64,000 nucleotides of DNA from Urbifossiella limnaea. GTDB lineage: Bacteria; Planctomycetota; Planctomycetia; Gemmatales; Gemmataceae. The notes beneath the pieces were generated by a model that saw only the letters and a list, made by a program, of their open reading frames with translations, was not told the origin of the DNA and ran no database searches. A program made the translations under genes and the position numbers. The stretch is taken from positions 3,394,322-3,458,321 of the forward strand of contig NZ_CP036273.1 of assembly GCF_007747215.1 (NCBI RefSeq), read 5' to 3'. Shown in pieces: positions 46,968-52,090 of this stretch (positions within the stretch are counted from its first letter, which is position 1; each line of letters starts with the position of its first letter).

Positions 46968-48842
46968 ATGACCCGCCGCACTCGCCCGACCCTGGTCACC
47001 GCGCTCGCCGTGGCGGCCGGGGTCGTGGCTTACTGGTTTCTCCTCCGCCCCGACCCGGGCGACCCCCGGCTGAACGGGTTCGTCGCCGCACGGCCGCCGG
47101 TGGCCGTCGTCTTCACGTCTCGCTCGGAGCCCGCTAGCTTCGAGGCCGCCGCCCCGGACGGCGAAGAGTTCCGCTACCCCGGCCGGCGCCTGTGGGCCGC
47201 ACGCGAGGGGAGGCTTCGGCTTCTCTCGACTCGCGGCACCGTCCACGAACTCACGTGGGGCCGCGCACTTCCCGACGGCGGCACGCTGATCGACGTGATG
47301 AGCCCGTCCGTGACGCTGGACGGTCGGTCGATCCTGTTCGCGGGCCGGAAGGGCGGCGACGACCCCGGGCACTTCCGCCTCTACGAGGTGCAGCTCGACG
47401 GCTCCGACCTGCGGCCGCTGACCGGCCAGCCGGGCGACCTCGGAGCTGTCGCCGTGCCGCCACTCCGTTTCGCCGCGGACGGGTCGCCTCTGTCCGACGC
47501 TCAACGTTGTCGGATCGACTACGACGACGTGGACCCGGTCGAGGTTCGGGCCGAGCCGCGGCAGATCGTGTTCGCGTCGAGCCGCGACCCGGATCTCGGC
47601 CGCGACCACGACCGCCGGTCCACGCAACTGTGGGTGCGCGACGAGCGCGGGCGACTGACGCAAGCGACGGCCAACCGCAACAACGACCGCTGGCCGTGGC
47701 CGATGGCCAGCGGCTACGTCGCGTTCAGCCTCTGGAGCCGGAACCGCGAGGTGGTCAGCGCCGATGCCACCGACGTGCGACCCTTCGACCCCGCGGTGCC
47801 GTCGGCGACGCCGCCGACCGATGCGTGGCTCGGGGCGTTCGTGCGGTTGAGTTCGTCGGGCCACTTCGGGATGCTGGCGAAGCCGCCGGTGCCGGTGTGG
47901 CGGCCAAGGCTTCTGGCCAATGGCCGAGTGGCATTCATGACCCCCGGACCAGACGGCCGCCTCACGGTGGCCCAGGTCGTGCCGGGCACCATCGCCGCTG
48001 TGCCCAGTGCCGCCGCGGCTCCGCTACCGACTCTGTCGGGAGTGCGGTTGCACCGTATTCCCGAAGCCGGTCGAGCAATGTCGCTCGCCACGCCGTCGCC
48101 CTGTCCACCCGCTGGCGTGCTCCTGTCAGCGGCTGGAGGCTCAGCGCCGGGAGCGTTCGGCCTCTACCTCGCCCCCGAGGAGTGGCCGGAAGACGGTGCA
48201 ACGGCAGGACCAGTGGAGCTGAAGCTCCTGTTCGACGACCCCGACCTGGTCGACGCGGAGCCGGTAGCCGTGTACCGCCGCTCGGTCTACGAGGTGCCCG
48301 CCGCGAGCAACGACAACTCGGCGCCAGACCGCACGCTGCAACTACTCTCGGGCAAGAAGTACGTCGGCCCGACCGGCAACCTGTTCGCCACCGGGCTGAC
48401 CGGGATGCAGATGGCCGACCTGCCCGGCCAGCGGACCGACACGGGGAGCGGCCCCGTGTTCGCCGCACCGCCGGCCGGGGCGATCGTCAAGCTGAAGGTG
48501 TGGGCGTCGCGCCGCGACCGGTTCGACGACCCCGTCCGGCCGCGGGTGCCAGGGGCGTGGGAGCCCCTGGTCGAATACCCCGCAGGTGACACCGCCGGCG
48601 GACCGGTACCGACCGACGCGCCAACCGTCCTCGCCGGCTTCGGCCGCGATGGTAAAGTGGTGCGTTGGGAGTCGGCGGCAGCTGATGCGGCGGGGCGGCG
48701 GGCGGCGTTTTACGCCTTCGCTGGTGACCACTACAGCTTGGCGACGTCCGGCGGCCGGCACTTCTGCGTCGGATGCCACCCCGGCCACAGCGGCATGCCG
48801 CCGGCCGACCACCGAAAGCACGCGGAGCAATTCCCACACTGA
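46968..48842 (+). CDS. TolB-like beta-propeller with C-terminal haem c site
   Basis: 624 residues. One N-terminal membrane anchor or uncleaved signal (TLVTALAVAAGVVAYWFLL). The middle is a TolB/WD-like propeller (SPSVTLDGRSILFAGRK, DDPGHFRLYEVQLDGSDLRPLT). The C terminus has CVGCH at about 600-604, a single haem c site followed by HPGHSG. The layout resembles the hydrazine-synthase alpha-subunit-like proteins of planctomycetes, which outside anammox bacteria do not make hydrazine. Likely a periplasmic membrane-bound electron carrier or sensor. Probably in one transcript with the DUF1559 gene 10 bases upstream. Confidence 0.78.
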   Translation: MTRRTRPTLVTALAVAAGVVAYWFLLRPDPGDPRLNGFVAARPPVAVVFTSRSEPASFEAAAPDGEEFRYPGRRLWAAREGRLRLLSTRGTVHELTWGRALPDGGTLIDVMSPSVTLDGRSILFAGRKGGDDPGHFRLYEVQLDGSDLRPLTGQPGDLGAVAVPPLRFAADGSPLSDAQRCRIDYDDVDPVEVRAEPRQIVFASSRDPDLGRDHDRRSTQLWVRDERGRLTQATANRNNDRWPWPMASGYVAFSLWSRNREVVSADATDVRPFDPAVPSATPPTDAWLGAFVRLSSSGHFGMLAKPPVPVWRPRLLANGRVAFMTPGPDGRLTVAQVVPGTIAAVPSAAAAPLPTLSGVRLHRIPEAGRAMSLATPSPCPPAGVLLSAAGGSAPGAFGLYLAPEEWPEDGATAGPVELKLLFDDPDLVDAEPVAVYRRSVYEVPAASNDNSAPDRTLQLLSGKKYVGPTGNLFATGLTGMQMADLPGQRTDTGSGPVFAAPPAGAIVKLKVWASRRDRFDDPVRPRVPGAWEPLVEYPAGDTAGGPVPTDAPTVLAGFGRDGKVVRWESAAADAAGRRAAFYAFAGDHYSLATSGGRHFCVGCHPGHSGMPPADHRKHAEQFPH

Positions 48843-49462: not shown

Positions 49463-50704
49463 GTGGGACAGCAGGTTTTCCAGCACACCCTCGCCAACGG
49501 CCTCGTACTGCTCGCGGAGCGGATGGAACACGTCCGCTCGGCCGCCATCAACTTCCTCGTCCCGGCCGGCGCCGCCTACGACCCGCCCGGCCGACTCGGC
49601 CTCGCGTCGGTAGTCGCCGACCTGATGACCCGCGGTGCCGGCGACCGCGACAGCCGGCAACTCGCGCTCGCACTCGACAACCTCGGCGTGGACCGCGACG
49701 AGAGTGTCGGTGCCGTCAACATGCGCTTCTGGGGCTCGACGCTGGCCCGCAACGTTCCCGCGACCCTGGACATCTTCGCCGACGTACTCCGCCGCCCGCA
49801 CCTGCCCGACGACGAACTCGAACCGGTGCAGGCGCTGGCGCTGCAGGACTTGCAGAGCCTCGAGGACGCGCCGCAGCAGAAGGTCATGGTCGAGCTGCGC
49901 CGCCGCTACTACCCGCGCCCGCTGAACCAGGACCGCCGCGGCGTCGCCGAGCACATCGAGGCGCTCACCATCGACGACGTGCGTGACCAGTACGCCCGCC
50001 TGTTCCGGCCGAACGGCTCGATCCTGTCCGTGGCCGGGAACGTGGAATGGGAGCCGCTGAAGGCCCAGGTGGAGCGGCTGTTCGGCGACTGGAAGCCGGG
50101 CGAGGACGCCACCCTACCACTGACCGCGAGCACGCCGCTGTCCGAGCACCTGCACAAGGACACCCAGCAGACGCAGATCGCACTGGCGTACCCGGCGGCG
50201 GCCATCGGCAGCCCGGACTATTACCCGGCGCGGGCCGCGGCGTCGGTGTTGAGCGGCGGCATGGCGTCGCGCCTGTTCACGGAAGTGCGCGAGAAGCGGG
50301 GCCTGTGCTACAGCGTGTCGGCGTGGCACGAGACGTTCAAGGACCGCGGCTCGATGCTGGCGTACGCCGGCACCCGCGCCGAGCGCGCCCAGGAGACGCT
50401 CGACGTGACCGTCGGCGAACTGCGGCGACTGAGCCTGGGCGTGACCGACGACGAGATCGACCGCGTCAGAGCGGGACTGAAGTCGTCGCTCATCATGCAG
50501 GAAGAGTCCACGTCCGCCCGCGCGGGCGCCATCGCCACCGACTGGTACTACCTCGGCCGGGTGCGGTCGTTCGACGAGGTGCAGGCGGCCATCGACGGGC
50601 TGACGCCGGCGGCCGTCGTCGGGTACCTGGGCCGCTACCCGGTCCGCGGGATGACGCTCGTGACGCTCGGCCCCGCCCCCTTGACCATGCCGGAGGACCG
50701 GTGA
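49463..50704 (+). CDS. M16 peptidase homologue without zinc site (MPP-alpha-like)
   Basis: 413 residues, GTG start. M16 fold throughout, e.g. HTLANGLVLLAERMEHVRSAA and SVLSGGMASRLFTEVREKRGLCYSVSAW, the substrate-binding R-x4-Y region of the C-terminal half. The zinc motif HxxEH is absent: the corresponding place reads ASVVADLMTRG. It therefore cannot be catalytic alone and probably pairs with the catalytic M16 protein two genes downstream, like the mitochondrial processing peptidase alpha and beta subunits. Overlaps the next small gene by four bases. Confidence 0.88.
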   Translation: MGQQVFQHTLANGLVLLAERMEHVRSAAINFLVPAGAAYDPPGRLGLASVVADLMTRGAGDRDSRQLALALDNLGVDRDESVGAVNMRFWGSTLARNVPATLDIFADVLRRPHLPDDELEPVQALALQDLQSLEDAPQQKVMVELRRRYYPRPLNQDRRGVAEHIEALTIDDVRDQYARLFRPNGSILSVAGNVEWEPLKAQVERLFGDWKPGEDATLPLTASTPLSEHLHKDTQQTQIALAYPAAAIGSPDYYPARAAASVLSGGMASRLFTEVREKRGLCYSVSAWHETFKDRGSMLAYAGTRAERAQETLDVTVGELRRLSLGVTDDEIDRVRAGLKSSLIMQEESTSARAGAIATDWYYLGRVRSFDEVQAAIDGLTPAAVVGYLGRYPVRGMTLVTLGPAPLTMPEDR

Positions 50705-50823
50705 ACGACCCGACCGAGCAGCGCGAACCGGCCACGTCCTTCAAGTGGGTCATCATCACCGGCCTGACGGTGTGGACCCTCGGGGCCGCGATGATCGTGT
50801 GGTCCCGCTTCTTCAGCAACTGA
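50701..50823 (+). CDS. 40-residue single-span membrane protein
   Basis: GTG start at 50701 overlaps the preceding stop (GTGA), and the stop is 13 bases before the next GTG start. The sequence has a charged N terminus (NDPTEQREPATSFKW) and one membrane helix (VIITGLTVWTLGAAMIVW). Overlap, position between the two M16 genes and clean helix argue that it is translated. It may anchor the otherwise soluble peptidase complex; speculative. Shorter than most gene callers accept. Confidence 0.68.
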   Translation: MNDPTEQREPATSFKWVIITGLTVWTLGAAMIVWSRFFSN

Positions 50824-50836
50824 GGAGTCTGCGGCC

Positions 50837-52090
50837 GTGCCGTTCTTTACCCACACACTGCCGAACGGGTTGACCCTGATCGGCGAGCCGAGCCCCGCCG
50901 CCCGGTCGGCGGCCGTCGGCTTCTTCGTTCGCACCGGCAGCCGCGACGAGCGGCCGGACGAATCGGGCGTCAGTCACTTCCTCGAGCACATGATGTTCAA
51001 GGGCACGCCGCGGCGCACCGCCCTGGACGTGAACCTCGACTTCGACCGCATCGGGGCCAGCTACAACGCCTACACCAGTGAGGAGAACACCGTCTACTAC
51101 GCGGCGGTGCTCCCCGAGTACCTGCCGCGGGCCGTGGACATTCTGGCCGACATCCTCCGCCCGAGCCTCCGCACCGACGACTTCGACACCGAAAAGCAGG
51201 TGATTCTCGAAGAGATCGGCATGTACGAGGACCAGCCGGCGTGGGCGGCGTCGGACCACGCGCGGAAGATTTTCTACGGCCCGCACCCGCTCGGGAACAG
51301 CGTGCTCGGGTCGAAGGAGAGCGTGACGGCGCTGACCCGCGACGGAATGCACGCCTACTTCGGCCGCCGCTACGCGCCGACCAACATCGTCGTCTCCGCC
51401 GCGGGGCACTTCGACTGGGACGAACTGGTGAAGTTGGTGACCGCGGCGTGCGGCGGGTGGGCGCGCGGCGAGGCCGGCCGCGGCCCGCGCAGCGAGTGGG
51501 CGGGGGAGGGCGGCCTCCACGTGCTGACGCGGGAGAAGGTGCAGCAGGAACACGTCATGTTCCAGGCCGGCGGTCCGCCGGCCGACAACCGCCTACGGTA
51601 TGCCGCGGACACGCTCGCACTCGCACTCGGCGACGACTCGGGCAGCCGGCTGTACTGGGCGCTGGTGGACCCGGGCTACGCCGACTCGGCCGACAGCGCG
51701 TACTACGAGTACGACGGCGCCGGCTGCGCGTACACGGCGTTCAGCTGCGAGCCGGAGCGGGCCGCCGCGAACCTCGACATCGTGCGGGCGGTGCTGGCCG
51801 AGGTGCAGCGCGACGGCCTGACGGCGGACGAGCTTCACACCGCCAAGAGCAAGATCGCCAGCCGGGTGGTCCGCGGCAGCGAGCGGCCGATGGGGCGGAT
51901 GCAGGCCATCGCCGCGGCGTGGAGCTACACCGGCGAGTACCGCGACGTGGACGCCGAGCTGGCCAACTTCGACGCCGTGTCGCTCGCCGACGTGCGGGCG
52001 TACCTGGACGCCTACCCGATCGACCGCAGCACCGTCATCGCCTTCGGCCCGCTGGACACGCTCGCCGGCGTGGCCGGGAAGCCCGTTTAG
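50837..52090 (+). CDS. M16 zinc metallopeptidase (MPP-beta-like, catalytic)
   Basis: 417 residues, GTG start after GGAGTCTG. The inverted zinc motif HFLEHMMFKGT is intact at about 48-58, with the distal Glu in the EKQVILEEIGMYED region (about 125). The C-terminal half has the substrate-binding motif GDDSGSRLYWALVDPGYADSA. Length matches single-domain-pair M16B proteases. In bacteria such enzymes degrade peptides or process exported proteins. It lies in an operon with the inactive homologue and a small membrane protein. Confidence 0.93.
   Translation: MPFFTHTLPNGLTLIGEPSPAARSAAVGFFVRTGSRDERPDESGVSHFLEHMMFKGTPRRTALDVNLDFDRIGASYNAYTSEENTVYYAAVLPEYLPRAVDILADILRPSLRTDDFDTEKQVILEEIGMYEDQPAWAASDHARKIFYGPHPLGNSVLGSKESVTALTRDGMHAYFGRRYAPTNIVVSAAGHFDWDELVKLVTAACGGWARGEAGRGPRSEWAGEGGLHVLTREKVQQEHVMFQAGGPPADNRLRYAADTLALALGDDSGSRLYWALVDPGYADSADSAYYEYDGAGCAYTAFSCEPERAAANLDIVRAVLAEVQRDGLTADELHTAKSKIASRVVRGSERPMGRMQAIAAAWSYTGEYRDVDAELANFDAVSLADVRAYLDAYPIDRSTVIAFGPLDTLAGVAGKPV

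Follow-up and report, generated by a model that had tools for sequence, protein, structure and literature searches.

What is a gene for a tiny hydrophobic protein doing between the two halves of an M16 peptidase? The question is raised by a locus of Urbifossiella limnaea (Gemmataceae), whose 7.8 Mb genome is a single contig, in a stretch of 64,000 nucleotides that we call the window and to which all positions refer unless a contig is named. The initial annotation had read three frames here, namely an M16 homologue (A), a short frame (SmA) and a second M16 homologue (B), and all three are found where it placed them (Table 1). Its description of the middle frame as a 40-residue hydrophobic gene coupled to A by a GTGA overlap also stands: the frame is open, its GTG (50701-50703) overlaps the TGA of A (50702-50704) with a GGAGG just upstream, and its product is predicted as one helix (residues 11-39). 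A gap of 13 nt separates the stop of SmA from the GTG of B.

Table 1. Positions of the M16 pair, its small gene and their key residues in the window, with the dispersed copies of draft genome G017 (contig:positions)
Feature	Position	Strand	Description
Gene A	49463..50704	+	413 aa from a GTG start; M16B subunit, predicted dead; R/Y pair present, HxxEH absent
R276...Y283 of A	50288..50311	+	R/Y pair expected to complete the active site of B
GTGA stop/start overlap of A and SmA	50701..50704	+	in the SmA frame in 5/6 genus members
SmA	50701..50823	+	probable single-span membrane protein of 40 residues, with TSFKWV as its conserved core
Gene B	50837..52090	+	417 aa from a GTG start; M16B subunit, predicted active
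HFLEH zinc motif of B, residues 47-51	50975..50989	+	in 72/72 B proteins
E126 of B	51212..51214	+	expected third zinc ligand; in 71/72 B proteins, remaining row gapped
A of G017	C2:27618-28844		open frame
B of G017	C350:1902-3146		open frame
SmB of G017	C425:2113-2241		open frame

We found both M16 domains in each of the flanking proteins, all over the Pfam cut-off (A: PF05193, 2.3e-37, and PF00675, 9e-11; B: PF00675, 4e-36, and PF05193, 3.1e-22). Within the family, 84 genomes encode A; with G028 left out, where A is cut by a contig end, the set comprises 83 proteins, that of the window and those of 82 relatives, and was aligned together with a set of 72 B proteins. B adjoins A in 72 of the 83 genomes, the 11 without it including some at contig ends, and one further genome (G018) has B with no A at threshold. 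HxxEH occurs nowhere in any A protein (0/83), and at the aligned positions both histidines are missing in all 82 rows with letters, the one other row being gapped. The initial reading of one homologue without HxxEH and another with HFLEH is thus borne out across the sample. The reverse pattern is displayed by the R276/Y283 pair, which is present in 83/83 A proteins versus 0/72 B proteins (one of the 72 being gapped there). The locus therefore combines the features of an M16B heterodimer, with both M16 domains in each gene, the zinc site in B only and the R/Y pair in A only; in such heterodimers, it is the dead subunit that supplies the R/Y pair.

The best solved relatives of A and B are two chains deposited together as 7v4y: A matches 5hxk (2.9e-88) followed by 7v4y_B (5e-87), and B matches 3eoq (3.1e-90) followed by 7v4y_A (3.6e-88). 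We take 5hxk to be TTHA1265 of Thermus thermophilus and 7v4y to be the TTHA1264/TTHA1265 complex. In the excerpts of PMC12731061 drawn on here, 3EOQ is given as TTHA1264, the pair is described as a stable heterodimer both in solution and in the crystal, and the zinc site of TTHA1264 is tabulated as 46HFLEH50-E125, a spacing that B matches with HFLEH at 47-51 and E126. Like A and B, the Thermus proteins have a single zinc subunit and are encoded by neighbouring genes; compared by description, they differ in that these excerpts mention no small membrane gene for them. SPH2681/SPH2682 of Sphingomonas (3amj), likewise a heterodimer of an active and an inactive subunit, is more distant (A to 3amj_B, 2.4e-20; B to 3amj_C, 1.6e-24). 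Among NCBIfam models, YfmF (NF047422) is the best for A and YfmH (NF047421) the best for B, and membership in these families was rejected at 76 bits against a curated cut-off of 285 and 99.6 bits against 250, both far below.

The initial annotation had also heard in this pair an echo of the alpha and beta subunits of the mitochondrial processing peptidase (MPP). The inactive/active arrangement that prompted it is confirmed, and MPP and the bc1 core proteins share the two-subunit M16B type, the core proteins sitting on a membrane complex. The parallel itself is weaker, the best relatives being bacterial chains and the R/Y pair being present in A. This pair completes the active site and is missing from MPP and the bc1 core proteins according to section 3.2 of PMC12731061, and a glycine-rich loop is reported in the alpha subunit of MPP (PMC3772902). 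On the best solved matches and the R/Y pair, MPP was set aside as the closest relative in favour of the TTHA1264/TTHA1265 kind. Because the active-site residues of A and B are complementary and A carries the R/Y pair, it is close to certain that the two form a split M16B enzyme; it looks to be of the known bacterial kind, with MPP the less fitting parallel. Both proteins are assumed to be cytosolic, as judged by eye from N-termini that have no hydrophobic signal-like stretch. We predict that together they constitute a cytosolic heterodimeric oligopeptidase with one shared site, to which B would contribute the zinc site (HFLEH...E126) and A the R/Y pair.

That SmA is a protein-coding gene is close to certain. 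A profile search of 95 family genomes returned one strong copy in each of the six members of the genus (E 5.1e-21 or better), the next best match being only E 0.0052, and a search of the same genomes with the single sequence listed 55 matches at E up to 10, of which only the six of the genus were better than 0.01. The initial annotation had proposed conservation of the small gene as a check on its reading, and SmA is indeed kept between A and B in all six genus genomes, the window's included, with the GTGA lying in its frame in all except L067. Synonymous change predominates in every comparison (pN < pS in 15/15 pairs; median dN/dS 0.245 over a 26-codon core), which is a signal of probable purifying selection. 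Among 5000 dinucleotide shuffles of 50701-50836, one yielded a comparable frame (ORF length 35 aa or more, 17-residue hydropathy 2.0 or more). A chance ORF or a spacer as the identity of SmA is rejected on these dN/dS values and shuffles. Against curated families, the SmA of the window has no Pfam or NCBIfam match at E 0.1, and one of the six members matches a Pfam model at E 0.33, which was taken as chance.

The A-B spacers of the 82 relatives also revealed SmB, another family of small proteins that occupies this slot and that the initial annotation had not noted; its members are about 45 residues long (e.g., L068-L071, L073, L084, L121 and L125). SmB is probably single-span, with one predicted helix (residues 12-42); it ends in an AWVFWFRGYA-like stretch, and E, D, Y, V, W, R and G each occupy invariant positions across 21 aligned rows. 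The alignment takes in all 23 spacer copies except L083 and L090, so that the resulting profile finds its 21 rows by construction; its finds beyond them are L083, L090 and a copy in G017. In all, SmB is detected in 24 of the 95 family genomes (E 1.3e-20 or better; next best 0.0054), distributed by genus code as 18/19 in g7, 4/6 in g1 and 2/2 in g33. Its gene sits in the A-B spacer in 23 of these 24 genomes, the sole exception being G017, a draft assembly in which A, SmB and B are on three contigs. Selection again appears to be purifying (pN < pS in 252/253 pairs; median dN/dS 0.297, defined for 230 of them), and third codon positions are on average the most variable. At most two of the 21 members hit any single Pfam model (best E 0.0057) and at most one any single NCBIfam model (best E 0.0083), all taken as chance, and, with E 1 as the limit, the SmB profile met a single chain in the PDB, a subunit of photosystem I (0.41). 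No curated family in Pfam or NCBIfam was found for SmA or SmB, and, judged from their sequences, they appear to be two families without visible kinship. At the start of the A-B spacer, L069 and L089 carry extra sequence ahead of the conserved part of the small gene, e.g., RHSCLCG and QTFLSVCFDGLAAQTGMSVP, which gives the impression that short dispersed repeats have inserted there.

The two small genes co-occur, in the order SmA-SmB, in four genus members, and SmA stands alone in the window's genome and G089. Counted together, SmA and/or SmB accompany 25 linked A-B pairs, a group that takes in every linked pair of genus codes g1, g7 and g33; where SmB is missing from these 25, SmA is present, as if either small protein could substitute for the other. 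No small gene was counted in the remaining 47 of the 72 linked family pairs, of which the 24 with a spacer of at least 70 nt were screened for frames; the other 23 have spacers below 70 nt that could hardly hold a small gene. A hydrophobic frame of 30 aa in L142 passed a first screen, failed a second and was counted as none, and second hydrophobic frames in L070 and L121 were taken as chance. Two A-B spacers, those of L122 (901 nt) and L108 (501 nt), are unusually long and hold no hydrophobic small frame.

Beyond the family, a phylum sample of 294 genomes includes 42 with A, the window's among them, and the loci of 29 of the other 41 were examined. B lies inside the locus in 20 of these and is absent from it in nine; 15 of the 20 linked pairs have an A-B overlap or a spacer of at most 13 nt, and none of the 29 loci shows a hydrophobic small frame. 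Since 47 linked pairs of the family and 20 of the phylum show no small gene, the M16B peptidase does not need one. SmB was found in 24 of 102 genomes of the order, identical to the 24 of the family, and in none of 392 phylum genomes among the best candidates (at most 18 per genome), a result that is weak as evidence of absence. One 8-residue SmB pattern, run across genome contigs, fitted 36 stretches, of which 16 were confirmed, all planctomycete. Within the genomes searched, SmA and SmB are confined to part of one family, the Gemmataceae. Four changes are required to explain the SmB label on the tree built from A alone, and the tree built from A and B together places the 25 small-gene pairs on one side of a branch with a support of only 78; a single origin of the pairs that bear small genes is allowed by these trees, not proven. 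The conservation of the slot, the signal of selection and the absence from other linked pairs together indicate that an M16B pair gained a tiny membrane protein.

As to what it was added for, the reading that we favour, tentatively, is that SmA and SmB tether the A/B pair to the membrane, a role that the initial annotation had suggested for the small protein. SmA would be made from the same message as A and B by translational coupling, insert into the membrane with its N-terminus outside and a short C-terminus inside, and hold or position the pair at the inner face, where the peptidase could meet membrane-derived or exported peptides. In sister lineages, SmB would fill this role, alone or beside SmA, and the window's genome may have lost SmB and kept SmA. 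The basic end of a membrane helix favours the cytosol (the positive-inside rule), the C-end is net positive in 5/6 SmA and 23/23 SmB proteins, and the opening eight residues of the SmB core, which lie before and at the start of the helix, carry a charge of -2 or -3 in 23/23 copies; on this ground a C-end beside A and B in the cytosol is favoured. The charge signal is uneven: the whole N-part of SmB sums to a negative charge in 18 of the 21 aligned rows, to 0 in two and to +1 in one, and SmA has a lysine just ahead of its hydrophobic stretch. Topology drawn from such charges is a weak guide and would orient the proteins only provisionally. Other members of the M16 class are described as opening and closing around short peptides, and QCR7 has been called a membrane anchor for core protein I (both in excerpts of PMC12731061).

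If A and B had adapted to a membrane partner, residues peculiar to the pairs with small genes might mark the contact. Such pairs have 6 specific columns in A, compared with 3-39 in control clades, and 10 in B, compared with 4-15, the control clades being smaller (5-10 rows against 25). As these counts fall within the range of the controls, there is no sign of an adapted docking site. The most conspicuous column, W221 of B (51497-51499), is shared by 23/25 proteins with a small gene beside them versus 0/47 without, and was dropped as a marker of the small gene, clade-marking columns being no commoner here than in control clades. Our confidence in the tether is kept below the middle of the scale by this want of matching changes in A and B, by the many relatives without a small gene and by G017.

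The same three points bear on a somewhat unlikely alternative, in which the small proteins serve some separate function in the membrane, e.g., as part of a different complex, and are linked to the peptidase by no more than a common operon. It would account for an SmB that is intact apart from A and B in G017, for the A-B pairs of other genera that have no small gene and for the lack of a docking signal in either subunit. It fits less well with two families of no visible kinship occupying one slot, or with the retention of SmB in the A-B slot in 23 of 24 genomes while the single downstream neighbour tested is not kept: the inositol-phosphatase-like gene that follows B in the window was found in 2 of 83 stretches, several of which end shortly past B.

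Less likely again is that SmA and SmB regulate the peptidase, for instance as a helix-based inhibitor or activator, instead of anchoring it. A place between the genes of both subunits, the stop/start overlap with A in most SmA cases (5/6) and the invariance of R and G near the SmB C-terminus throughout the aligned rows would all suit a regulator, against which the long hydrophobic helix points to the membrane. Small precursor genes occur beside M16 genes, and SmA and SmB might in principle be substrates or precursor peptides cut by the adjacent pair. A model would be AlbE/AlbF, an M16B pair named in excerpts of PMC12731061 as involved in the maturation of subtilosin; the long hydrophobic helix speaks against this too, no peptide-modifying enzyme was recognized by Pfam among the three neighbour genes scanned, and SmB is conserved through its C-terminal half instead of having a conserved leader and a variable core, so that we regard the idea as improbable. 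A last reading, on which the frame codes for nothing and serves only as a spacer that adjusts the A:B ratio, as its shortness, its coupling and the various spacer lengths elsewhere might suggest, is largely refuted by the selection signal in both families, the variable third codon positions and the shuffles.

Returning to SmA and SmB as tethers of the A/B pair, we consider it possible, though doubtful, that an M16B peptidase gained dedicated tiny membrane subunits twice in one lineage, with SmB arising in an ancestor of part of the Gemmataceae and SmA in one genus, and with SmB giving way to SmA in two genomes, the window's and that of its nearest relative. If this were true, the result would be a membrane-docked M16 machine convergent with the bc1 complex, which holds its M16 core proteins via small subunits. 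What is already known is the kind of M16B pair; what is new is a tiny conserved membrane-protein gene between its halves in one group of planctomycetes. Among the matches listed for literature on M16 heterodimers, planctomycete small proteins and protease adaptors, the titles and opening lines of abstracts describe no M16 pair with a gene for a small membrane protein within it. For prokaryotic M16 proteins in general, data on cellular function are scarce and substrates poorly defined, as stated in an excerpt of PMC12731061. A small membrane partner, if real, tells where the enzyme works and offers a means of isolating its substrates. The sharing of one gene slot by two unlike tiny proteins would also make a compact case for studying how new small membrane proteins originate and displace one another.

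Upstream of A, the window encodes a protein of 624 residues (46968-48842), which has one weak beta-propeller match (PD40, E 0.0064, below the cut-off) and a C-terminal CVGCH motif that resembles those binding haem.
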